Shown: in pieces, positions 1-12,399 of the stretch | Numbering within the stretch: position 1 is the stretch's first letter | Layout of the letters: every line of letters begins with the position of its first letter | Source: Flavobacteriales bacterium | GTDB lineage: Bacteria; Bacteroidota; Bacteroidia; Flavobacteriales; Schleiferiaceae | NCBI GenBank assembly: GCA_017795025.1 | Contig: CP051243.1 | Span: forward strand, 3,000,897 to 3,064,896 | Reading direction: 5' to 3' | DNA length: 64,000 nt | The notes under the pieces: generated by a model | What the model was told of the DNA's origin: nothing | Databases searched by the model: none | What the model saw: the letters and a program-made list of their open reading frames with translations, nothing else | Program-made: the position numbers and the translations under genes

Positions 1-300
1 TTAGGGAGTTTTGACCTATCGAGACTTATTTCGGCAGCAGATATTGTGATAAGCCGCAGTGGTTATAGCTCCTTAATGGATTACCGAAAATTAGGAAAGA
101 AAGCCTTGTTAATCCCAACGCCCGGTCAGTATGAGCAGGAATATCTAGCAAAAAAACACAGTGGAAATTACGGATGGCTGATGGCAGAGCAGGATAATCT
201 GCAATTGGAAAGGAATCTTGACCGTTTAAAGGCACTTCCTCAGCCAGAAGCTTGGGAGCTGAGTTTACCCCCGGATTTATTTAAGCCTTTTTTAGGGTAA
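1..300 (+). CDS. Glycosyltransferase, C-terminal fragment (MurG-like)
   Basis: The reading frame is open from base 1, so the start lies outside the window and only about 99 C-terminal residues are seen. The fragment contains ADIVISRSGYSSLMD followed by KALLIPTPGQYEQEYLA. This is the nucleotide-sugar-binding part of the C-terminal Rossmann lobe in GT28/MurG-like transferases, where a G-Y/G-S turn is followed by a P-x-x-x-Q-x-E-N/Y motif. In this family the protein transfers a sugar from a UDP-sugar; the acceptor cannot be told from the fragment. Its last 20 bases overlap the end of the convergent phoR gene. The fold assignment is fairly safe and the substrate unknown. Confidence 0.7.
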   Translation, partial: LGSFDLSRLISAADIVISRSGYSSLMDYRKLGKKALLIPTPGQYEQEYLAKKHSGNYGWLMAEQDNLQLERNLDRLKALPQPEAWELSLPPDLFKPFLG

Positions 301-1327
301 AAGAAAAGGTAGAGCCTTTGTTCTCGCTGCTGCGCACATTAATCGTTTCTTTATGCGATTCAATAATGTGTTTCACTATGGAAAGACCTAAGCCTGTTCC
401 GCCAGCATCGCGACTACGACTTTTATCAACCCGATAGAACCGCTCAAATACGCGTGGAAGGTCCTCGGGCGGAATGCCAACACCGTCATCATTCACTTCC
501 GTTAGAATATGCTTATCCATATCGAAAAAGCGGATTTCAACTCGGCCATTCTCATTACCATATTTAATGGCATTTCCTACTAGGTTAATAAGCACCTGTT
601 CAATTTTAGCACGATCGGCACGTACCTTTACCGGTCGGTCTAAATCCTTATTGATCAGCAGCTTAATCTTTCGCTTTTTAGCCTTGTCTTCTACCAGTTC
701 ATGCACGCCTTCTACCAGTTCCACAAGGTCGAAGATTTCATAATTGATACGCACCCGATCGGATTCCAAAGCGGAGATGGTTTCTAAATCTTCGATGATA
801 TTAATCATTCGATCCACCGATTTATTGGCGCGTTTTAGGTAGCGGCGATTTATTTCTTGATCATCAATAGCCCCATCGAGCAAGGTTAAGAGGTAACCTT
901 GAATATTAAAGATGGGTGTTTTTAATTCGTGAGAGATATTACCAATAAACTCGCGGCGAAAAGATTCGCGCTCGCGGAGTTCGGCAATTTCGTTGCGGTT
1001 TTGGGTTGCCCATTCCGAAACCTCGCGGGTAACAAGGTCGAGGTCAGTACTACGCGCTAATTCTTCCTCTTCAAATTCAGAACCTATTTTTAGTTCATGA
1101 ATATTCTTATAGATGATTTTCACCTTGCGGTAGATGAATTGCTCTACCCCAAAACGAATTAAAAAATAGGCTAGGGCAAATATCAGGGCGCCAATTAATA
1201 GGGGTAGGTATACCGGAACACTATCCACCATGTAGGCAGCACGAAAGAGGCTCATCACTCCTGCGGCTATCAAACCTAGCACCAAGGCTAGGGTAAAGGC
1301 CAGTATTCCGGGTTTATCTAATCGCAA
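281..1327 (-). CDS. phoR: PhoR-like sensor histidine kinase
   Basis: This 348-residue membrane kinase autophosphorylates on a histidine and passes the phosphate to the response regulator encoded just upstream. Two membrane segments lie at about residues 8-28 and 39-58, with almost no periplasmic loop and no visible PAS domain. The H-box is FIGNISHELKTP with His133. The N-box (NLVGNAIKYG), G1 (DDGVGIP) and G2 (GGTGLGLSIV) boxes complete a HisKA/HATPase pair. The start is TTG, placed directly after the phoB stop codon (TAATTG); the next Met is at residue 25, inside the first membrane helix, so TTG is preferred. The short sensor suits PhoR, which usually senses through the phosphate transporter/PhoU. 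The phosphate role is inferred from neighbours. Confidence 0.85.
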   Translation of the reverse strand: MRLDKPGILAFTLALVLGLIAAGVMSLFRAAYMVDSVPVYLPLLIGALIFALAYFLIRFGVEQFIYRKVKIIYKNIHELKIGSEFEEEELARSTDLDLVTREVSEWATQNRNEIAELRERESFRREFIGNISHELKTPIFNIQGYLLTLLDGAIDDQEINRRYLKRANKSVDRMINIIEDLETISALESDRVRINYEIFDLVELVEGVHELVEDKAKKRKIKLLINKDLDRPVKVRADRAKIEQVLINLVGNAIKYGNENGRVEIRFFDMDKHILTEVNDDGVGIPPEDLPRVFERFYRVDKSRSRDAGGTGLGLSIVKHIIESHKETINVRSSENKGSTFSFTLKKA

Positions 1328-2011
1328 TTACGCTTCAAATTTATAGCCTACGCCTTTTACCGTTTTAATCAGTTTATCACCAATTTTCTCGCGCAGTTTA
1401 CGGATGTGTACATCGATTGTTCTACCGCCTACTACCACTTCATTGCCCCAAATTTTATCGAGAATTTCATCGCGGTGAAACACTTTACCAGGACGTGATA
1501 TTAATAGGCTTAAGAGTTCAAATTCCTTTCGGGGTAAATCTAGCTTTTTACCTTTTAAGCTCACCTGATATTTATCAAGGTCGATGCTTAAATTACCAAA
1601 TTGTTGAAGGGAGTCGTTTTGCGCCGTTTGCCCATATCGGCGTAAGAGGGCTTTTATACGACTTATTAGCACTTTAGGTTTTATGGGTTTGGTGATGTAG
1701 TCATCCGCTCCTGCATCAAAGCCAGCAACCTGCGAATAGTCTTCTCCTCTTGCCGTAAGAAAGGCAATCAAGGTGCCCTCTAATCCCGGTGTTTTCCGAA
1801 TTTGATCGCATGTTTCGATACCATCCATACCGGGCATCATTACATCCAATAAAATTAAATGAGGCTTTTCTTGCTTGGCTTTGCGTAAACCGCTTTCACC
1901 GTCATTGGAGGTTAAAACCTTAAAATCCTCTTTTTTCAAATTATAGGATATAAACTCCAAGATATCGGGTTCATCATCCACTAATAGAATAGTGTAATCG
2001 CTGTTAGTCAT
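1328..2011 (-). CDS. phoB: PhoB-like response regulator, OmpR family
   Basis: A 227-residue two-domain regulator. The receiver domain (about residues 7-122) has the acidic pair D12/D13, the phospho-acceptor Asp56 in LLDVMMPG, a conserved Thr in FLTARGE and Lys in ITKPIKP. The C-terminal winged-helix DNA-binding domain (about 130-226) ends in the usual GRTIDVHIRKLREKIG ... TVKGVGYKF. It is the cognate partner of the kinase that follows with zero spacing and probably binds DNA as a tandem dimer at 11-bp direct repeats. Such repeats occur just upstream of this gene and in front of the divergent lipoprotein gene. Assignment to PhoB, rather than another OmpR-type regulator, rests on these repeats and the phosphate transporter nearby. 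Confidence 0.85.
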   Translation of the reverse strand: MTNSDYTILLVDDEPDILEFISYNLKKEDFKVLTSNDGESGLRKAKQEKPHLILLDVMMPGMDGIETCDQIRKTPGLEGTLIAFLTARGEDYSQVAGFDAGADDYITKPIKPKVLISRIKALLRRYGQTAQNDSLQQFGNLSIDLDKYQVSLKGKKLDLPRKEFELLSLLISRPGKVFHRDEILDKIWGNEVVVGGRTIDVHIRKLREKIGDKLIKTVKGVGYKFEA

Positions 2012-2036: not shown

Positions 2037-2044
2037 CAAAAATA
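2037..2044 (-). promoter_or_regulatory. -7 element for phoBR
   Basis: On the minus strand this reads TATTTTTG, an exact match to the Bacteroidota -7 consensus TAnnTTTG. It would give a leader of about 20 bases before the phoB ATG. No -33 TTG is visible at the usual distance; instead the 11-bp repeats begin about 27 bp upstream, which would fit an activator-dependent promoter. Confidence 0.55.
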
Positions 2045-2070: not shown

Positions 2071-2119
2071 CTTAACAATTCGTTAAATTAACAAGGAATA
2101 CCTTAATGTGGGCTTAATG
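2071..2119. promoter_or_regulatory. Candidate Pho boxes, phoB-proximal
   Basis: Two pairs of heptamers sit at exact 11-bp spacing: CTTAACA at 2071 with GTTAAAT at 2082, and CTTAATG at 2102 with CTTAATG at 2113. An 11-bp period of direct repeats is the hallmark of PhoB/PhoP binding sites, and TTAACA is close to the known Bacillus PhoP half-site. The position upstream of phoB suggests autoregulation or a distal site for the divergent gene. Confidence 0.55.
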
Positions 2120-2195
2120 ATTATAAGCTGTTGATTTTAAGACATTAGCAAATTGAATTCTCTTTAGCTGCCCCGTTTCCAAATCGCTAAAGTTC

Positions 2196-2224
2196 CTTAA
2201 AGCTCACTTAACACCTGCTTAACA
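2196..2224 (+). promoter_or_regulatory. Candidate Pho box, triple 11-bp repeat
   Basis: Three heptamers follow one another at exact 11-bp steps: CTTAAAG at 2196, CTTAACA at 2207 and CTTAACA at 2218. They end 10 bases before a near-consensus -7 element (TTCCTTTG, 2234-2241), so they occupy the place of a -33 element. This is the layout of a PhoB-activated promoter. The target is the lipoprotein gene starting at 2270, and possibly the receptor genes behind it. Confidence 0.65.
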
Positions 2225-2233
2225 AGGTGCTTG

Positions 2234-2241
2234 TTCCTTTG
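2234..2241 (+). promoter_or_regulatory. Near-consensus -7 element for the lipoprotein gene
   Basis: TTCCTTTG differs from TAnnTTTG at one position. It lies just downstream of the triple repeat and 28 bases before the ATG at 2270. Weak core plus activator sites is a reasonable reading. Confidence 0.4.
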
Positions 2242-2269: not shown

Positions 2270-3475
2270 ATGAAAAAATTTAAGTCATTTGCTCTTGCTG
2301 CCGTTGCAGCGCTTGCTTTTACTGCGTGTGAGGACGACACTACCGACAATCAAACTACTGATAACGGTATTAATGTTGTTCCTGTTTCTGGTACTATTTC
2401 TAGCGATGCTACCTGGACAAAAGACAATATCTATCGCTTAGACGGTCGTGTTTTAGTTTCTGGTGGTGCTACCCTTACTATCGAAGCTGGAACTATCGTT
2501 AAAGCTTCTCCAGGTTCTGGTGCTTTCGCTTCTGCTCTTATCATTACTCGTGATGGTATGATCAATGCGGTAGGTACTGCTTCTGAGCCTATCATCTTCA
2601 CTACAATTGCTGATGATATTGAGCCAGGACAAATCGTATCTCCAAACATGGATCCAAGTAACACTGGTCTTTGGGGTGGTGTTATCATCTTAGGTGAAGC
2701 TCAAATTTCTGCTTCTAACGACGATGGTGATCAACTTTCTGAGTTACAGATTGAAGGTATTCCTACTTCTGTTGATGCTCGTTACGGTGGTACCAACGAT
2801 GCTGATAACAGCGGTTCTTTTGTATACTGCTCTATCCGTCACGGTGGATCTAACATCGGTGCTGGTAACGAAATCAATGGTTTAACCATGGGTGGTGTAG
2901 GAACCGGTACTACTATTGACCACGTAGAAATCGTAGCTAACGCTGACGATGGTGTTGAGTGGTTCGGTGGTTCTGTAAACACTACTAACATGTTAGTTTG
3001 GAACTGTGGTGACGACGGTTTAGATACCGACCAAGACTGGATTGGTACTTGTACCAACTGGATCGTAGTTGGTCCTGATGGATCAGGTATGGAGCTTGAC
3101 GGTCCTGAAGGTGATTTGAACCGCGGTACGCATCAGTTCACTGACGGTACTATCTATGCTGGTTCTGCTATCTCTGACTTAGTTGACTGGGACGGTAACA
3201 CTAACGCTGGTGTAGAGAATGTATACTTCTTCGGTTGGGATGCTGACTACAAAGACGGTATCTCTTCTTTCGGTGGTGACGGATCAGGAACTAACGCGAA
3301 CTGGGAGTACACTCTTCCTGCTGGTGGCGAGCCTGTTGACTCAGTATTTACTGGTGTTCCTGCTGCTGCTTTAACTTCTGTAGCCGCTAACGCTAACACT
3401 GTAGGTGCTAACAGCGCTGAGTTCGGATTTACCTGGGCTGCTCAGTCAGGTGCCTTAAGTTCAATTGGACTTTAA
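2270..3475 (+). CDS. Beta-helix-like surface lipoprotein, probably phosphate-regulated
   Basis: Starting at the ATG at 2270 (MKKFKSF) gives 401 residues with a lipoprotein signal ending LAFTAC, so Cys is the likely lipidated residue. An upstream in-frame ATG at 2231 would add 13 residues that spoil the signal peptide and lies inside the promoter. The body is rich in G, D, N, S and T with repeated short strands (LTIEAGTIVKA, WGGVIILGEAQ, NSGSFVYCSIRHGG, IDHVEIVANADDGVEWFGG), typical of a right-handed parallel beta-helix. Codons are strongly biased to GGT, GCT, AAC, GAC and ATC, suggesting high expression. It lies between candidate Pho boxes and a TonB receptor, so it may be that receptor's surface partner. 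The ligand is unknown; no T9SS signal is present. Confidence 0.7.
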   Translation: MKKFKSFALAAVAALAFTACEDDTTDNQTTDNGINVVPVSGTISSDATWTKDNIYRLDGRVLVSGGATLTIEAGTIVKASPGSGAFASALIITRDGMINAVGTASEPIIFTTIADDIEPGQIVSPNMDPSNTGLWGGVIILGEAQISASNDDGDQLSELQIEGIPTSVDARYGGTNDADNSGSFVYCSIRHGGSNIGAGNEINGLTMGGVGTGTTIDHVEIVANADDGVEWFGGSVNTTNMLVWNCGDDGLDTDQDWIGTCTNWIVVGPDGSGMELDGPEGDLNRGTHQFTDGTIYAGSAISDLVDWDGNTNAGVENVYFFGWDADYKDGISSFGGDGSGTNANWEYTLPAGGEPVDSVFTGVPAAALTSVAANANTVGANSAEFGFTWAAQSGALSSIGL

Positions 3476-3556: not shown

Positions 3557-6448
3557 ATGTCGATGAAGGCTGTAATTAAAAATACCTTAACCATCTTGTT
3601 ATTTGTGCTTCCGACCTTAGTGTTTGCCCAAAAGGGTACCATTAGAGGTCAGGTTTTAGATGGAGAAAACGGTGAGCCCTTGTTTTCTGCGAATGCAGTA
3701 ATAAAAGGCACTATGATAGGCACAACCACGGACTTTGATGGATATTTTGAAATTCAAATTGAGCCGGGTACTTATCAATTAGAAATTAGCTTCATTGGGA
3801 TGAGCAGCTTGGTGATTACTGATGTGGTCGTTACTTCAGGTGAAGTTACCGTAGTTGATCCCGTTACTTTGAAACCAGCAAGTAATGAATTGGCGGAAGT
3901 AGTAGTTACTTCGGAGGCCGTCCGTAATTCAGAAGCGGCTATCGTTACGGTAAAAAGAAAATCCACCAACTTAATAGATGGTGTTTCCGCGGCTAAGCTT
4001 CGTAAAACTGGTGATAGTGATGCTGGTGATGCCGCTAAACGAGTTACTGGTGTTTCGGTAGAAGGCGGTAAATATGTTTACGTACGTGGACTTGGTGATC
4101 GCTATACCAAAACCATGCTCAACGGCATGGATATTCCAGGTTTGGATCCAGATAAGAATAGTATTCAAATTGACATTTTCCCAACGACCTTAATTTCCAA
4201 CCTTACCGTTTTAAAATCGGGATTAGCAGAATTACCAGCGGATTTTACCGGTGGGGTGGTTAATATTGAAACACAGGAGTTTCCAACAACTAAAATTTTC
4301 GACGTAAGTGTAGGGGTAGGCTACAATCCTGCTATGCACTTTAATTCGGAATACATCGCTTACGAAGGGGGCGCTACCGATTTCTTGGGATTTGATGATG
4401 GAACTCGTGAAATTCCCGATCCTAATGGCTCAGGACCACGGGCGATTTTTGATGATGATGCCGAAGTAAGTGCCTTTAACCGTCAATTTTCAAAAACATT
4501 GGGTGCCGAAACTACCACCAGTCCGATGGATTTTGGTATTGGAATCTCTTTCGGAGATCAAAAGTCTTTAGAGGATGGTAGTAAAATCGGTTACATTTTT
4601 TCGGCTACTTACGATAACTCACGTGTGTTTTACGATGATATTCAGTTTGGTGAATATCAACGTCCGATTCCTTCCGATGAGTTTCAATTAATTCCGGCGG
4701 TTGATCAAAGAGGCAAGCTCTCTGAAAATAACATTTTAGTAGGAGGACTAGCAGGTATTACTTACAAGACTTTGCTTTCCAAGTATAAATTTACCGCGAT
4801 GCACTTACAGAGTGCAACAGCTCGTTCGGCCCAGTTGGAAATTGTGAACTTCGAGGGAGCGGTTCAAATTTCAGACTTTGAGGCCTTTGGACATAACTTG
4901 GAATATAATCAACGCGGCTTAACCAATATGCTATTAAGCGGTGAGCATTATATTGATGGCGGTGATTGGGAGATTAATTGGGCCATTGCGCCAACCTTAT
5001 CCTCTTTGCAAGATCCTGATATTCGTAAAACCGCATTTACGGTGAACAACGGAGACTCAACCTTCGGCCCTGGTGAAGGTGGCAACCCAAGTCGTATTTG
5101 GCGTTTTCTATCAGAGGTTAACCTGGCTTCTAAAGTTGATGTTATCCGTCAACATAGCTTGTTGGACGACGATGCTAAGTTGAAATTCGGAATCAGCCAC
5201 CTATTTAAGTACCGCGATTATTCGATTTTCCAATACGATCTTCGTCAGGTTTCTGGAAACCAAATTTTATATAATGGAGATCCTAATTCGGTATTGGTAG
5301 ATCAGAACCTTTACGATACGGGTCTTTTATCTTATGATCCTCTACTTTTAGCCGGTTTTGCCAACCCTAACGAATACCAATCTAATGTTCATAATATTGG
5401 TATTTACGTATCCGAAGAATTTAAACCAACCGAGAGCCTCAAGGCAGTGCTTGGTTTACGGGCCGAAATTTTCCAACAAAGACATACTGGTCGTGATCAA
5501 ATTGCTGCCCAGAATCCAAACAACCCGCTAGGAAATACCTTGGATAATGATTTAGTATTGGATGCGATTGATCTCTTTCCTTCGGCCAACTTGATTTATG
5601 CCATAAGTGAGGATGTGAATCTTCGTGGTTCTTATTATCGCTCCATCGCTCGCCCATCGTTTAAAGAACTTTCCTTTGCTCAAATTTTGGACCCTGTTTC
5701 TAACCGTACTTTTAACGGTGGTTTATTCCAGTATCAAGATTGGGATGGGAACTTACAGTCTACCCGTATTAACAACTTTGACTTGCGCTGGGAGCGCTTC
5801 CTTGATGGAGCAGACATTGTTTCGGTAAGCGCGTTTTATAAGTCCTTCGATTCACCAATCGAATTGGTGCGTATCCCAGCTGCTCTTAACGACTTCCAGC
5901 CACGAAACGTGGGTAATGGAACCTTGATTGGGGGAGAGTTTGAATTGCGTAAGAATTTAGGCTTTATCAGCGAAAGCTTAAAAATGATTGCCTTCTCTGG
6001 AAACTTCACCTATACCTATTCTCAAATTGATATGACCGATGCAGAGTATAATGCTCGATTAACAAATGAGAAGGACGGACAAACTATTGAGCGTACCCGA
6101 CAAATGGCCGGACAAGCGCCTTACATTGTAAATGCTGGCTTTAGTTATGACAATATTGAAAAGGGCATTAGTGCAGGTTTGTTCTACAATGTGAAAGGAC
6201 GTACCCTTGAGATTGTAGGTGGTAACGTAGCTCCGGATATTTACACGGAACCTTTTAATAGTTTAAATGCCACCTTTAACAAGACCTTTGGTGAGGACGG
6301 CAAGCAAGCGGTGAATATTAAAGTGGCCAATATTTTAAATGATGTTCGTGAGAGCTTGTTCCAGGCCTACGAGGCAGACGGACAAGTGTTTAACCGATTA
6401 AACCCAGGTATTGCCGTATCTATCGGTTACACCTATAGTTTTTATTAA
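3557..6448 (+). CDS. TonB-dependent outer membrane receptor
   Basis: A 963-residue receptor that imports a ligand across the outer membrane using TonB energy. It has a signal peptide ending VFAQ near residue 25, a carboxypeptidase-regulatory-like beta-sandwich at about 28-110 (GTIRGQVLDGENGEPL ... TTTDFDGYFEI), and a plug at about 130-250 (YVRGLGDRYTKTMLNG, FTGGVVNIETQEFP). A beta-barrel follows and ends in GYTYSFY with the usual aromatic C terminus. There is no SusD gene next to it; the lipoprotein gene upstream may take that place. ATGs at 3557 and 3563 are equally possible starts. The location beside phoBR and a phosphate transporter suggests a phosphorus-containing ligand, which is inference. 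Confidence 0.88.
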   Translation: MSMKAVIKNTLTILLFVLPTLVFAQKGTIRGQVLDGENGEPLFSANAVIKGTMIGTTTDFDGYFEIQIEPGTYQLEISFIGMSSLVITDVVVTSGEVTVVDPVTLKPASNELAEVVVTSEAVRNSEAAIVTVKRKSTNLIDGVSAAKLRKTGDSDAGDAAKRVTGVSVEGGKYVYVRGLGDRYTKTMLNGMDIPGLDPDKNSIQIDIFPTTLISNLTVLKSGLAELPADFTGGVVNIETQEFPTTKIFDVSVGVGYNPAMHFNSEYIAYEGGATDFLGFDDGTREIPDPNGSGPRAIFDDDAEVSAFNRQFSKTLGAETTTSPMDFGIGISFGDQKSLEDGSKIGYIFSATYDNSRVFYDDIQFGEYQRPIPSDEFQLIPAVDQRGKLSENNILVGGLAGITYKTLLSKYKFTAMHLQSATARSAQLEIVNFEGAVQISDFEAFGHNLEYNQRGLTNMLLSGEHYIDGGDWEINWAIAPTLSSLQDPDIRKTAFTVNNGDSTFGPGEGGNPSRIWRFLSEVNLASKVDVIRQHSLLDDDAKLKFGISHLFKYRDYSIFQYDLRQVSGNQILYNGDPNSVLVDQNLYDTGLLSYDPLLLAGFANPNEYQSNVHNIGIYVSEEFKPTESLKAVLGLRAEIFQQRHTGRDQIAAQNPNNPLGNTLDNDLVLDAIDLFPSANLIYAISEDVNLRGSYYRSIARPSFKELSFAQILDPVSNRTFNGGLFQYQDWDGNLQSTRINNFDLRWERFLDGADIVSVSAFYKSFDSPIELVRIPAALNDFQPRNVGNGTLIGGEFELRKNLGFISESLKMIAFSGNFTYTYSQIDMTDAEYNARLTNEKDGQTIERTRQMAGQAPYIVNAGFSYDNIEKGISAGLFYNVKGRTLEIVGGNVAPDIYTEPFNSLNATFNKTFGEDGKQAVNIKVANILNDVRESLFQAYEADGQVFNRLNPGIAVSIGYTYSFY

Positions 6449-6486: not shown

Positions 6487-6515
6487 AGGAAGGTTTTTGA
6501 AAAAAAACCTTCCTT
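6487..6515 (+). terminator. Intrinsic terminator after the TonB receptor gene
   Basis: AGGAAGGTTTTT pairs with AAAAAACCTTCCT around a short loop, followed by a T-rich stretch. No exact TAnnTTTG promoter is visible between it and the next ATG at 6540. Confidence 0.7.
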
Positions 6516-6539: not shown

Positions 6540-9500
6540 ATGAAGCGAAAATTATCTGTCTATTTAGCAACTATAGCCACTTTATTGATTGGCTATCAAG
6601 GTTTCACCAACTCCGGTGGTGCCCCACAAAACCGCAGTGGTTCTCCCGCCAGTAATGGTAATACCTGTTCAACAGGAGGTTGCCACAGTGGTCCTGCTGC
6701 CACTAACCAATCGGTAACGGTGAGCTCCACTATTCCAGCAAGTGGCTATCAAGCAAATACGAACTATACCATTACTATTTCAGTAGATAATGGTACCACT
6801 ATGGGAAGTACCGTAGGTTTTTCTGCCTCAGTGGAAGATGCTTCGGGTCACGTGGGAACAATTAGCAGTCCAGGAAGTGGTGCCCAATTATCGGGCAGTA
6901 ACTTCGTGACGCATACCATTAGTGGAAACTTCGCTTCTGGCGGAAGCCGCACTTGGACCTTTAACTGGAATCCTGGTGCTAACCCACCCGCTAATGCTAC
7001 GGTTTACGTAGCGGCAAACTTTGCGAATGGCACTGGTGGTACGGCTGGCGATGTTATTGTGAGCAATAGCGCCTCCTTCAGTCAGGTGGTTAGCGTACCA
7101 ATGTACACCATCTCCCAAATTAACAGTTTGGATGCCAACTTTGCACCCGATTCGCTTGGGGTTAACTGTGCTCTAACTGGCACGGTTTTCACCGACGATT
7201 TTGATGGCAATAATGGCTATAGCTTTTACATGTACGACAATACCGGCGAAATCAACGTATTCGATTTTGTTGATGAGCCAGGGGGCTACCAGGTAAGTCG
7301 TGGCGATTCTATTCGTGTTTACGGTGACATCGCTTTTTTCAATGGTCTTTTAGAAATTCAAGTAGACTCTATTCAGCTCTTGGCAAGCAACATTGCCTTG
7401 CGGGCCCCTCGCGTGGTAAGCACCTTAGATGAAACGACCGAGAGTGACTACATCCGGGTGAACAATTTCTCGGTGGTAACACCTTCGCAGTGGCCATCAG
7501 CCGGAAGTAGCGCGAATGTGGATATTACCAATGGTACCGACACCTTAACTATGCGTATCGATTCGGATACGGATATTGATGGTAGCCCTGTTCCAACTGG
7601 AAGTTTCGATGTTATCGGAGCCGGTGGTCAGTTCGATAGTTCGGCACCACACGATGAAGGATATCAAATCTTCCCCCGCGACCTGAATGACATTCTACCT
7701 GCAGCGATTAGCTTTAATGGAGTTCCTTTGTATAATGTGAATCAGATTAACAGCTTAGATGCCAATTTTGCTCCCGATTCTTTAGGTGTTAACTGTGCCG
7801 TTCAAGGAGTAGTTTTCACCGATGATTTTGATGGTAATAATGGCTATAGCTTCTACTTATACGATAATACCGATGGGATCAACATCTTCGATTTTGTGGA
7901 TGAGCCCGGTGGTTATCAGGTAAGTCGTGGTGATTCTATCCGCGTATTTGGAGATGTAGCCTTCTTCAATGGCTTATTGGAACTCCAAGTAGACTCTATT
8001 CAAGTATTAGCAACGGGTGTTGCCTTAAAAAGCCCGGCGGTTGTTTCTACCCTGGATGAAAGCACCGAAAGTGAATACATTCGAGTAAACGGATTTGAAT
8101 TGGTGAATCCAGCCCAATGGCCATCTGCAGGTAGCAGTGCCAACGTGGATATTACCAATGGAGTAGACACCCTAACGATGCGTATCGACTCTGATACCGA
8201 TATCGACGGAAGTCCTGCACCTACCGGTTTCTTTGATGTGATTGGAGCGGGTGGTCAGTTTGACGGTTCAGCTCCTCACGACGAAGGGTATCAAATTCTA
8301 CCTCGTGATACCAATGATATTATCCCAGCAATTATGGCGGTTCCCTGTGCGGCGCCATTCTTTAGCGAGTATATCGAAGGTTCTTCTCAAAACAAAGGTT
8401 TTGAAGTGTATAACCCTACTTCTGGTAACCTCGATTTAGGTCCTTATAAAGTTTACTTGAGCGTAAATGGCGGTAGCAGCATGAGCGAGTTTAACCTTAT
8501 GGGTACCCTTGCCTCTGGCGATGTTTACACCATTGTTACCGATCAGGCCGACCCTAGTATGTTAGCGGTTGCCGATACCAACCTATCTTTCCCTAGTGTA
8601 GCTCACTTTAATGGCGATGACGCTTTATTCTTGGTGGATACTGTAATGGGAGATACTCTTGACATTGTAGGAGTAGTAGGTGTTGACCCCGGTTCGAGCT
8701 GGACGGTAGGTAGTGGTTCTACGGCTAATAACACCTTAGTTCGGATGGCGACTGTTAATGCCGGTGAAACGGATTGGAATACGGCCAGCACCCAGTGGAT
8801 GGTTAACCCTACTAATACCTTTAGTTTCTTGGGTAGTCATACCAGTAACTGTGTAAATACCACGCCATCTACCCCTACGGTAGAATTCCGCATGGCTAAT
8901 TACTCTGCTTTAGAAAGTGCGGGTGCAGGAGCTATTACTTTGGATATTAACCCAGCTACTACTGGAGTAGACACCGTATATCTTTCCTTTATGCCGGGTC
9001 CTGGTTTAACTACTGCCGATGGTACTATTACCCCCGCTTTTGATCCAGTAACCGGCTTGCTTAGTTTAGTTGTACCTGCAGGATCAGATTCTATTAACCT
9101 TCTTACCACCATTAATGATGATGCGCTTGTTGAAGGTTTAGAATATGGCGATATGATGATTTTAGGAACTAGTGCTGGACTTACAACCGGTACTATTACT
9201 AGCACCCGTTTTGAGATTATCGACAATGATATTCCTACTTATAATATTGCTCAGGTTAAAGGCATTGATACCGACTTTATCCCCGACTCCCTAGGAGTAC
9301 AGTGTAAATTAATCGGAACCGTGTTTACCGACGATTTTGACGGAAATAATGGTTACAGTTTCTATATGTACGATAACACTGGTGCTATTAATATTTTCAA
9401 TTTTGTTGATGAACCCGGTGGTTACCAAGTGCAACGCGGCGATTCTATTCGTGCCATTGGTCACGTTGAATTTTACAATGGTTTAATTGAGTTGCAGGTA

Positions 9501-10619
9501 GATTCTATAGCGCTTATCTCCAGTGGGGTAAGCCTGCGTCAACCCACTCAGGTGTTCGATCTTAATGAGAATACCGAAAGTGACTATATCCGCTTAAATG
9601 GCTACTACTTGGTTGACCCAAGCACCTGGCCGGTATTTGCGGGTAGTAGCGTAAATATGGAAATCACTAATGGTCAGGATACCTTGGTGATGCGAATTGA
9701 TAGTGATACTGATATTGATGGTACACAGCCACCCCTTGGTTACTTTGATGTGATTGGTGCTGGTGGTCAGTTCGACGCTTCTGCCCCTCACGATGAGAAT
9801 TATCAAATTTTCCCTCGGGATACCATGGATATTATTCCGATAGATCTTCCACAGGTATACATTAGTGAGGTAATGCCAAGCAGCAGCCTAAGTGCTCCAA
9901 TTGATGGTGATTGGTTCGAAATCCGTAATATGGGTAGCACTACCGTTGACCTGAATGGCTTTAGCTGGGATGATGATAGCCGTAATGCGGGTAACCACAC
10001 CGTAACCACTAGCGTTCAAGTGCCTGCAGGAGGCTCAGCCTTATTTGTTGATGTTGCTACAGCCGATGTTAGCGCTTGGGAAACAGATTGGAAGCAAAAT
10101 GGTCAAGGCTTAATCATCCTTAATGAGGGAGATGAGTTTGATAACGGCTTCTCTGGTTTAAGTTCTAGCGGAGATGAAGTTAATTTATATGATGACGGTG
10201 GCCGTTTGGTATCTGCTGTTGCCTATGATGGCGCTTCAGTATCTAGTGGTGTTAGCTTAGAGTTTAATATGAACGGTATGTTTACCGGGGCCGCAGTTGA
10301 TGGGGTTAACGGAGCTTACACCTCTACCAGTGGTGATGTGGGTAGTCCTGGAAATCAGTCGGCTATTGGTTTAGATGAATTAATAGCTACAGAAATCACC
10401 TTGTATCCAAACCCAAGTAATGGGGTGTTTACGGTTGAAACAGGTTCTACTGAGGAAACTGGAATTCAGATTATTGATTTGAATGGGGCCCTTATTTATA
10501 GCGTGTTAAGCACAGATCCTGCCGTTCAAATAGATCTTTCTAATTTAGCGGCTGGTGTTTATTTAGTTAAAGTAAATACGGGGTCAGAAGAAGTAATTCG
10601 CAAAATGGTTTTGCGCTAA
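6540..10619 (+). CDS. Large T9SS-exported surface protein with OB-like repeats and lamin-tail-like domains
   Basis: This 1359-residue protein starts with a signal peptide and a choice-of-anchor V-like domain (about 25-185; GNTCSTGGCHSG, a C-x4-CH motif). Three homologous ~200-residue units begin near residues 189, 398 and 901, each with NGYSFYMYDNT and FDVIGAGGQFD blocks that look like paired OB-fold-type strands. Between units two and three lie a lamin-tail-like domain (about 602-770; FFSEYIEGSSQNKGFEVYNP) and a Calx-beta-like segment. A second lamin-tail-like domain (about 1105-1270; YISEVMPSSS ... DWFEIRN) precedes a T9SS type A sorting domain (ITLYPNPSNGVF ... AGVYLVKV). OB and lamin-tail folds often accompany secreted nucleases, but I see no nuclease domain here. 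It probably binds a polymer at the cell surface. Confidence 0.8.
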   Translation: MKRKLSVYLATIATLLIGYQGFTNSGGAPQNRSGSPASNGNTCSTGGCHSGPAATNQSVTVSSTIPASGYQANTNYTITISVDNGTTMGSTVGFSASVEDASGHVGTISSPGSGAQLSGSNFVTHTISGNFASGGSRTWTFNWNPGANPPANATVYVAANFANGTGGTAGDVIVSNSASFSQVVSVPMYTISQINSLDANFAPDSLGVNCALTGTVFTDDFDGNNGYSFYMYDNTGEINVFDFVDEPGGYQVSRGDSIRVYGDIAFFNGLLEIQVDSIQLLASNIALRAPRVVSTLDETTESDYIRVNNFSVVTPSQWPSAGSSANVDITNGTDTLTMRIDSDTDIDGSPVPTGSFDVIGAGGQFDSSAPHDEGYQIFPRDLNDILPAAISFNGVPLYNVNQINSLDANFAPDSLGVNCAVQGVVFTDDFDGNNGYSFYLYDNTDGINIFDFVDEPGGYQVSRGDSIRVFGDVAFFNGLLELQVDSIQVLATGVALKSPAVVSTLDESTESEYIRVNGFELVNPAQWPSAGSSANVDITNGVDTLTMRIDSDTDIDGSPAPTGFFDVIGAGGQFDGSAPHDEGYQILPRDTNDIIPAIMAVPCAAPFFSEYIEGSSQNKGFEVYNPTSGNLDLGPYKVYLSVNGGSSMSEFNLMGTLASGDVYTIVTDQADPSMLAVADTNLSFPSVAHFNGDDALFLVDTVMGDTLDIVGVVGVDPGSSWTVGSGSTANNTLVRMATVNAGETDWNTASTQWMVNPTNTFSFLGSHTSNCVNTTPSTPTVEFRMANYSALESAGAGAITLDINPATTGVDTVYLSFMPGPGLTTADGTITPAFDPVTGLLSLVVPAGSDSINLLTTINDDALVEGLEYGDMMILGTSAGLTTGTITSTRFEIIDNDIPTYNIAQVKGIDTDFIPDSLGVQCKLIGTVFTDDFDGNNGYSFYMYDNTGAINIFNFVDEPGGYQVQRGDSIRAIGHVEFYNGLIELQVDSIALISSGVSLRQPTQVFDLNENTESDYIRLNGYYLVDPSTWPVFAGSSVNMEITNGQDTLVMRIDSDTDIDGTQPPLGYFDVIGAGGQFDASAPHDENYQIFPRDTMDIIPIDLPQVYISEVMPSSSLSAPIDGDWFEIRNMGSTTVDLNGFSWDDDSRNAGNHTVTTSVQVPAGGSALFVDVATADVSAWETDWKQNGQGLIILNEGDEFDNGFSGLSSSGDEVNLYDDGGRLVSAVAYDGASVSSGVSLEFNMNGMFTGAAVDGVNGAYTSTSGDVGSPGNQSAIGLDELIATEITLYPNPSNGVFTVETGSTEETGIQIIDLNGALIYSVLSTDPAVQIDLSNLAAGVYLVKVNTGSEEVIRKMVLR
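7104..7703 (+). repeat. Internal coding repeat, copy 1
   Basis: First of three homologous ~600-bp units in the surface-protein gene. It encodes SLDANFAPDSLGVNC, TDDFDGNNGYSFY and GAGGQFDSSAPHDEGY. Copies differ mainly at synonymous sites, which points to old duplication kept by selection. Confidence 0.85.
7731..8330 (+). repeat. Internal coding repeat, copy 2
   Basis: Second unit, directly following copy 1 with a short linker. It is closest to copy 1 in protein sequence (SLDANFAPDSLGVNCAV, GAGGQFDGSAPHDEGY). Confidence 0.85.
9240..9840 (+). repeat. Internal coding repeat, copy 3
   Basis: Third unit, separated from copy 2 by about 900 bp that encode the lamin-tail-like and Calx-beta-like domains. 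It is the most diverged copy (GIDTDFIPDSLGVQC, GAGGQFDASAPHDENY). Confidence 0.85.
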
Positions 10620-10683: not shown

Positions 10684-12399
10684 ATGAATATCGCCGACCT
10701 TCTTTACAACATTCTCTCCTTAATAGGGGCCTTGGGACTCTTCATATTTGGTATGAAGGTGATGAGCGAATCTGTGCAAAAGTTTGCAGGGGCTCGCCTT
10801 CGAAAAACCCTTCGGGCCATGACCTCCAACCGCACTTGGGGTGTTGTAACTGGTTTGGGCATTACGGGAATTTTACAGTCTTCATCGGCTACAACCGTAA
10901 TGATTATAAGCTTCGTAAATGCAGGCTTGATTACCGTTGAGCATTCGGTAGGTCTGATTATGGGTGCAAATGTGGGTACCACCGTAACGGCTTGGTTGGT
11001 ATCGGTATTGGGAATGGGTAAGTTGTCCATTGCTCAGTTGAGTTTGCCGATATTGGCTTTTGGCTTCCCTATGCTCTTCATGTCCAAGGATAAATGGCGG
11101 TGGTATGGCGAAGCGATTTTTGGGTTTTCCATCCTTTTTATAGGCTTATCATTTATGCGAGAGTCTATGCCCGCTTGGCAAGAGAGTACTCAGTTAATAA
11201 GCTTTTTGCAGAATTATGAGCTGCAATCCGGTAACTGGCTGGCTAATATTGGCGTCATTCTTTTGTTTGTTGGCTTTGGAATGGTAGCCACTTTTTTATT
11301 ACAGTCGTCCAGTGCGGCAATGGCATTGACCTTAGTTTTTACCGCCAATGGTTTGATTTCTTTTCCCTTGGCCGCAGCCATCATTTTAGGAGAGAATATC
11401 GGTACTACCTTTACAGCGAACATTGCGGCAATCGTCGGAAACGTTTACGCCAAGCGGGCAGCGCGCACCCATTTTCTATTTAACCTATTTGGGGTGCTGT
11501 GGATGATTCTCTTTTTGGAGCCCTTCTTGGAATTAATTGCTTGGTTGAGTGGTTTCTTATTTGGTGCGAATCCGATGAATGATTCAGCGGTAATTCCTCT
11601 TTCATTGAGCTTGTTTCACAGCTTATTTAATGTTATTAACCTGCTGATTTTCTATAACCTCGTAAAGCTATTAGTGCGAATAGCAACATGGATGGTGCCT
11701 TCTCGTAGCTCGGAAGATGAGCTCTTTAGCCTGGATTACATCGGCGGAAGCCTAATGGCTACCCCCGAATTATCGATGATTGAAGCGCGTAAAGAACTGG
11801 TGAAGTTTGCGGATTTGATTCGAAAGGCCTATAAGTTTATCCCGCTCCTAATTACGGAGATGGATGATAAGAAATTGGAGTCCTATACGAGTAAATTGGA
11901 GAAGTATGAGGACATCTCGGACCGGATGGAGATGGAAATATCAGCCTACCTAAGTAAGCTAAGTCAGTCGGACCTAAGCATAGAAGGTTCGGGTAGGGTA
12001 CGCAGTATGTTGCACATTGCCAATTACCTTGAACGGATCGGCGATATATATCTGGAGGTGAGTCGCAACTTAAGCAACCGGAAACAACAAAAAGCCTATT
12101 TCACCCCAGAAATGCGTAACAGTGTGATGCGTTTATCGGAATTGACTTCCCGCAGTTTAGATTTGATGGTAAAGAATATTGAATCGGAGGAGGGTGAAGG
12201 TTATTTAGAGGAGGCCAATAAGGTGGAGCGAAATGTAAACACACTATTCGCAGAGCTTAAAGCCGATTACATAAATAAGGTAGAAAAGGGGCGCTTCCGC
12301 ATCCAAAGTGGTATGTACTACGCTGATTTACTCGCGGAAATGGAGCGGATTGCCGATCATGCCAATAGCATTAGCACGGCAATTAGCAAGCAGTATTAG
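10684..12399 (+). CDS. Na+/phosphate cotransporter with PhoU-like tail
   Basis: A 571-residue inner-membrane symporter of the NptA/PNaS type. Two inverted Na/Pi cotransporter repeats carry the paired signature motifs GILQSSSATT (about residue 60) and FLLQSSSAAM (about 205), with GANVGTTVTA and GENIGTTFTA following. About nine membrane segments fill residues 8-330. The last ~200 residues form a soluble helical PhoU-like domain (MIEARKELVKFADLI ... YLERIGDIY ... MERIADHAN). It should import, or in some homologues export, phosphate with sodium. It sits only six bases after a strong terminator, so its own promoter is unclear. Its last four bases interlock with the convergent lipoprotein gene. Confidence 0.92.
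   Translation: MNIADLLYNILSLIGALGLFIFGMKVMSESVQKFAGARLRKTLRAMTSNRTWGVVTGLGITGILQSSSATTVMIISFVNAGLITVEHSVGLIMGANVGTTVTAWLVSVLGMGKLSIAQLSLPILAFGFPMLFMSKDKWRWYGEAIFGFSILFIGLSFMRESMPAWQESTQLISFLQNYELQSGNWLANIGVILLFVGFGMVATFLLQSSSAAMALTLVFTANGLISFPLAAAIILGENIGTTFTANIAAIVGNVYAKRAARTHFLFNLFGVLWMILFLEPFLELIAWLSGFLFGANPMNDSAVIPLSLSLFHSLFNVINLLIFYNLVKLLVRIATWMVPSRSSEDELFSLDYIGGSLMATPELSMIEARKELVKFADLIRKAYKFIPLLITEMDDKKLESYTSKLEKYEDISDRMEMEISAYLSKLSQSDLSIEGSGRVRSMLHIANYLERIGDIYLEVSRNLSNRKQQKAYFTPEMRNSVMRLSELTSRSLDLMVKNIESEEGEGYLEEANKVERNVNTLFAELKADYINKVEKGRFRIQSGMYYADLLAEMERIADHANSISTAISKQY

Follow-up and report, generated by a model that had tools for sequence, protein, structure and literature searches.

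A tandem 11-bp repeat element beside phoB as a probable Pho box of Flavobacteriales

Response regulators of the OmpR/PhoB family bind direct repeats with an 11-bp period (PMC4415409, PMC4832192). In E. coli, PhoB-family proteins are arranged head to tail approximately 10 bp from the -10 element, in place of the -35 element (PMC4415409, PMC1906773). The SphR box of the cyanobacterium Synechocystis is composed of three tandem copies of the 8-bp sequence CTTAACCT with a 3-bp linker (PMC1906773). Flavobacteriales have an important role in the breakdown of organic phosphorus, both in soil and in the sea. In Flavobacterium johnsoniae, Pi depletion raised the expression of a TonB-dependent receptor (TBDT), the FII lipoprotein, a glycosyltransferase and phoB by log2 values of 8.0, 9.9, 5.4 and 3.1, respectively, and plcP was also Pi-induced (PMC8115612); the main text of that report contains neither 'Pho box' nor 'motif'. 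In Riemerella, deletion of a PhoP/PhoR-type system increased pstS 8-fold (PMC5399024), which is the opposite of simple activation. Moreover, an EMSA showed binding of Bacteroides fragilis PhoB to a pstC promoter fragment of 512 bp, in a study that defined no consensus (PMC3547664). Searches of the open-access literature found no consensus Pho box for Bacteroidota, an absence that is not proof. A previous sequence-only reading of the present DNA had called the Pho box of Flavobacteriales poorly defined.

In this study, a window of 64,000 nucleotides (the whole stretch of DNA that was analysed) from a Flavobacteriales genome was examined around its phoB-like gene, and the features are collected in Table 1. 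The neighborhood was syntenic with the F. johnsoniae phoBR locus, Fjoh_0541-0546. The phoB-like regulator scored 220.3 bits against a curated cut-off of 296.2 for the PhoB equivalog TIGR02154 and 213.2 bits against a cut-off of 270 for NF053854. The lipoprotein encoded next to phoB was the sole match to the FII lipoprotein in its own genome, and no PstS was found in this genome. In addition, a hairpin-like GGAAGG...CCTTCC lies after the TBDT gene at about 6488-6512 and may be a terminator parting this gene from the T9SS protein and the cotransporter. Co-regulation of the Na+/Pi cotransporter is therefore uncertain, because the transcript may end at this hairpin.

Table 1. Features of the phoB region, with positions counted from the first letter of the window.
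Feature	Position	Strand	Remarks
GT28-type glycosyltransferase, C-terminal end	1..300	+	PF04101; counterpart of Fjoh_0541
phoR-like sensor histidine kinase, short form	281..1327	-	
phoB-like OmpR-family response regulator	1328..2011	-	Best PhoB match of genome, below curated equivalog cut-offs
phoB -7 element	2037..2044	-	Reads TATTTTTG on - strand
Site A, pair CTTAACA/GTTAAAT at 11 bp	2071..2089	+	Nearest phoB; ~34 bp from phoB -7
Site B, pair CTTAATG/CTTAATG at 11 bp	2102..2119	+	31 bp past site A
Site C, core operator (putative)	2196..2224	+	3 x 11-bp units CTTAAAG/CTTAACA/CTTAACA
Spacer, last half-site to -7, 9 bp	2225..2233	+	Length 9 in 66/67 high-scoring loci
-7 element TTCCTTTG of lipoprotein promoter	2234..2241	+	Weak, Bacteroidota TAnnTTTG type
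Lipoprotein, Flavobacterium FII lipoprotein homologue (Fjoh_0546 type)	2270..3475	+	E=1e-33, 38% identity
TonB-dependent receptor (Fjoh_0545 type)	3557..6448	+	Synteny with PMC8115612 Table 1
Large T9SS-secreted LTD protein	6540-10619		Between TonB receptor and Na+/Pi cotransporter
Na+/Pi cotransporter with PhoU domain, NptA type	10684..12399	+	PF02690 9.2e-59, PF01895 6.8e-13

The 258 bp between phoB and the divergent gene contained nine TTAA (at 2072, 2083, 2088, 2103, 2114, 2137, 2197, 2208 and 2219), among which four pairs were spaced by exactly 11 bp. Four pairs at this spacing were found in 0 of 5000 dinucleotide shuffles, and random placement of nine TTAA yielded four pairs that shared one spacing, whichever it was between 6 and 22, in 0.085% of cases. 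No other TTAA spacing in the intergenic region showed comparable clustering. It could be argued that TTAA, which is common, simply clustered by chance in an A+T-rich intergenic region, and the spacing of 11 was indeed not enriched over the full 64 kb (6 pairs, 4 of these in the phoB intergenic region). However, the shuffling result and the conservation of the spacing across families leave this explanation a negligible probability; the repeats are real and far above chance. These positions bore out the repeats of the sequence-only reading, with starts at 2071/2082, 2102/2113 and 2196/2207/2218 in steps of 11 bp. The description of all of them as CTTAAnn-like heptamers held in position and failed in sequence at 2082, which reads GTTAAAT, and the TTAAC at 2088 is an extra copy absent from the earlier list. 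Furthermore, the gap between the triple and the -7 element, previously given as 10 bases, is 9, since the triple extends to 2224 and TTCCTTTG begins at 2234.

The triple was kept within the same genus, and the promoters of Flavobacteriaceae showed the form ATAACA-N5-STAACA-N5-TTTACA-N9-TTTCTTTG. The core of the half-site is accordingly TAACA and not CTTAA as had been proposed: the true half-site is NTAACA (at 2197-2202, 2208-2213 and 2219-2224 in site C), and CTTAAC is the version of this genus. The element was present at 67 of 79 Flavobacteriaceae TonB-receptor promoters divergent from phoB at a threshold of 11 or more of the 15 core bases, which was reached by 0.8% of shuffles; at the same threshold, an altered period was found in at most 1 locus and an altered spacer in at most 5 loci of the 79. 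A scoring matrix trained solely on the Flavobacteriaceae promoters of the phoB locus located the element of the window at 2197-2241 with 31.2 bits (99.9th percentile of shuffled sequence, 9.6), the highest score among 127,912 positions of the 64 kb, and recovered the equivalent site in most relatives of the family. The next best score of the window (13.7 bits), at 3576-3620 just inside the annotated TBDT start, is probably due to chance or else to a mis-set start of that gene. In the matrix, the -7 element of the lipoprotein promoter was conserved as KTNCTTTG. The conservation of the repeats was thus confirmed for the genus, the family and Flavobacteriaceae, with an invariant 11-bp period and 9-bp spacer, in counts whose independence is overstated, since the loci are related and not phylogenetically independent. 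The name 'Bacteroidota Pho box' is too broad: the element was demonstrated for Flavobacteriales, and it was not obvious at the one Chryseobacterium-like locus examined (L122).

On the phoB side, an 11-bp TTAA pair was found no more than 140 bp from phoB at 21 of 30 family loci, against 2.7% of shuffles, and at the spacing of 11 only. CAAAAnTA was conserved in relatives at the position of the phoB -7 element, and site B was conserved in some of them (L025, L027, L028, L030 and L032). Site A is a probable autoregulation site of phoB. A helical-phase reading of the distance from site A to site C was too weak, with few independent loci, and was dropped.

The FII lipoprotein, which has its own promoter in Flavobacteriaceae, allowed the matrix to be applied to promoters that were taken from the same loci and were not part of its training. 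An 11-bp half-site pair was present 25 bases from TTTG in 61 of 72 FII promoters, compared with 1 of 107 control genes; it was seen at none of the other distances tested from the -7 element. The matrix scores of the non-redundant FII promoters were clearly raised (Mann-Whitney p=2e-11). The third slot beside the -7 element is mostly not a half-site in this family, which indicates that two arrangements exist. No convincing element was found before the non-lipoprotein FII paralogues or the MKNFF-type lipoproteins. These data also bear on the view that the repeats belong to a constitutive promoter, in which a conserved -33/-7 with A+T-rich UP-like sequence would act with no regulator. The A+T-rich TTAA do lie at promoter distance, and the -7 element is within the conserved block. 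However, such a promoter would hardly explain the exact 11-bp period, the 9-bp spacer and the sequence-specific TAACA cores; a matrix score of 10 was reached by only 1 of 107 promoters of other genes in the same loci, itself FII-like, and the orthologous genes are strongly Pi-induced. A constitutive promoter is therefore considered very unlikely.

The element is rare genome-wide, and the number of matches with up to 2 mismatches was not above that of a reversed-pattern control. In the own genome and three further genomes of the genus (G000, own; G001, G003 and G005), the site at the phoB locus was the only perfect match to the consensus. The sole one-mismatch match of the own genome preceded a metallophosphoesterase-glycosyltransferase operon of the plcP type, and the orthologous operon of G003 (L353) also had the site. 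This pair is known for lipid remodelling in phosphorus starvation (PMC4796936). The plcP site (L327 1500-1562; G000:979790-979833) is 18 bp before the plcP-type phosphoesterase, which is followed by the glycosyltransferase. Weaker matches preceded a PhoX-like gene and a phytase operon in G009, a PhoX-like and a beta-propeller phosphatase-like gene in G033, and, in both G001 and G005, a metallophosphoesterase; these count solely for gene identity and cross-genome recurrence, because the same search chose them and the totals were not above the reversed control. The composite element was absent at phoD and phoX of the own genome. The expected recurrence before phosphate genes was thus seen at the FII lipoprotein, at plcP-glycosyltransferase in two genomes and at PhoX-like and phytase genes in some relatives, and was not seen at the own phoD and phoX. 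By orthology to F. johnsoniae, whose published genes were tested through the genomes of relatives, the element precedes genes predicted to be induced by Pi starvation.

Other patterns were also considered. The TTAAYN6TTAAYR pair gave 29 matches against 36 for the reversed control and was dropped as a genome-wide regulon finder in favor of the composite element, because it is not specific. The sequence ATTAAGATTAAGTTAAG, conserved in some members of the genus, was rejected as an independent Pho box of the own phoD, as it does not show the promoter geometry; it is located at the -7 element of a gene that diverges from the PhoD-like phosphatase, in the region between the two (L058 1500-1520; G000:991532). 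Most Flavobacterium phytase promoters kept only the last half-site, together with a displaced pair. Upstream of the TBDT of these phytase operons (L231-L247), GTAACA is followed after 9 bp by TAGTTTCG, and an ATAACA/TTAATT pair stands three units upstream; this layout is possibly a third arrangement. Additionally, three genomes of the genus have a conserved composite-like element in front of the gene for an LTD-domain T9SS protein (L348, L349 and L350, the last at G000:3203027), downstream of a D-aminoacyl-tRNA deacylase-like gene.

The 11-bp repeats might also be the operator of another OmpR-family regulator (e.g. G000:1964850 or G000:266946) or of an unknown activator of the lipoprotein and TBDT genes, with PhoB merely a neighbor. 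More response regulators of the family are encoded in the genome, and, according to the sources cited above, 11-bp direct-repeat operators are common to the family. Against this, the element keeps its place beside phoB in almost every genus examined, although the first divergent gene varies, being a lipoprotein in the family of the window and a TBDT in Flavobacterium, and it recurs at plcP and FII, with Pi-regulated orthologues. A different regulator is thus regarded as improbable.

In our opinion, the element is very probably a Pho box, namely a tandem operator of the adjacent PhoB-like regulator that drives the lipoprotein and TonB-receptor genes in low phosphate. Direct repeats with an 11-bp period stand 9 bp upstream of TTCCTTTG in place of the upstream promoter element, which is the layout of a Pho box. 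The earlier Pho box proposal was supported by geometry, conservation and the link to phosphate genes, and fell short in its half-site and at the own phoD and phoX. We infer PhoB as the binder, activation as the effect and low phosphate as the signal in this organism. In such a mechanism, phosphate starvation would lead PhoR to phosphorylate PhoB, which would bind head to tail on the three NTAACA units at 2196-2224. The resulting array at the -33 position, 9 bp before the weak -7 element, would recruit RNA polymerase for transcription of the FII-type lipoprotein and the TonB receptor, whose products may import or process phosphorus compounds. Sites A and B would probably serve autoregulation of phoB or act as upstream helper sites. 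In S. aureus, the PhoU domain of such a Na+/Pi cotransporter modulates PhoPR (PMC13170248). A broader and tentative proposal, which we consider rather doubtful, is a Pho regulon without PstS in which the box drives lipoprotein/TonB import and the PhoU domain of the cotransporter, instead of Pst-PhoU, reports phosphate to PhoR in a feedback loop with the PhoB locus; three NTAACA units, 9 bp and a -7 element would then make up the Pho promoter used generally in Flavobacteriales. A consensus of fixed geometry would make Pho-regulated genes predictable from sequence, including the poorly understood Pi-induced TonB receptors and lipoproteins, and the geometry suggests how an 11-bp PhoB array may dock on the unusual -7/-33 promoter of Bacteroidota.

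Among documented Pho boxes, the cyanobacterial CTTAACCT box comes closest in sequence. Both have an 11-bp period, three tandem copies, a nearly identical CTTAAC half-site and a PhoB-family regulator (putative here); CTTAAC and the layout match, and the final CT of the cyanobacterial sequence is not conserved in the matrix. Unlike the SphR box, which precedes a sigma70 -10 element, the present element has NTAACA half-sites 9 bp before a Bacteroidota -7 element and TonB-receptor and lipoprotein genes as targets. The E. coli PhoB box likewise consists of 11-bp direct repeats approximately 10 bp upstream of the downstream promoter element and replaces the upstream one. In contrast to its CTGTCAT repeats, TAACA stands here in place of TGTCA, three units are typical and the promoter is of the Bacteroidota type; the CTGTCAT half-site was not found, as the matrix gives NTAACA, and the element would thus resemble an E. 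coli box in its working without being one. The PhoP box of Bacillus subtilis has TTAACA-type half-sites and an 11-bp period, both like those found here, and differs in lineage, promoter type and regulon. The phoBR locus and PHO regulon of F. johnsoniae share the neighborhood of glycosyltransferase, phoR, phoB, TBDT and FII lipoprotein (PMC8115612), whereas in the window the lipoprotein precedes the TBDT, and the genome has no PstS. Bacteroides fragilis belongs to a different order and has a Pst system, which is absent here. Taken together, the element is regarded as a lineage-specific form of a known operator type.
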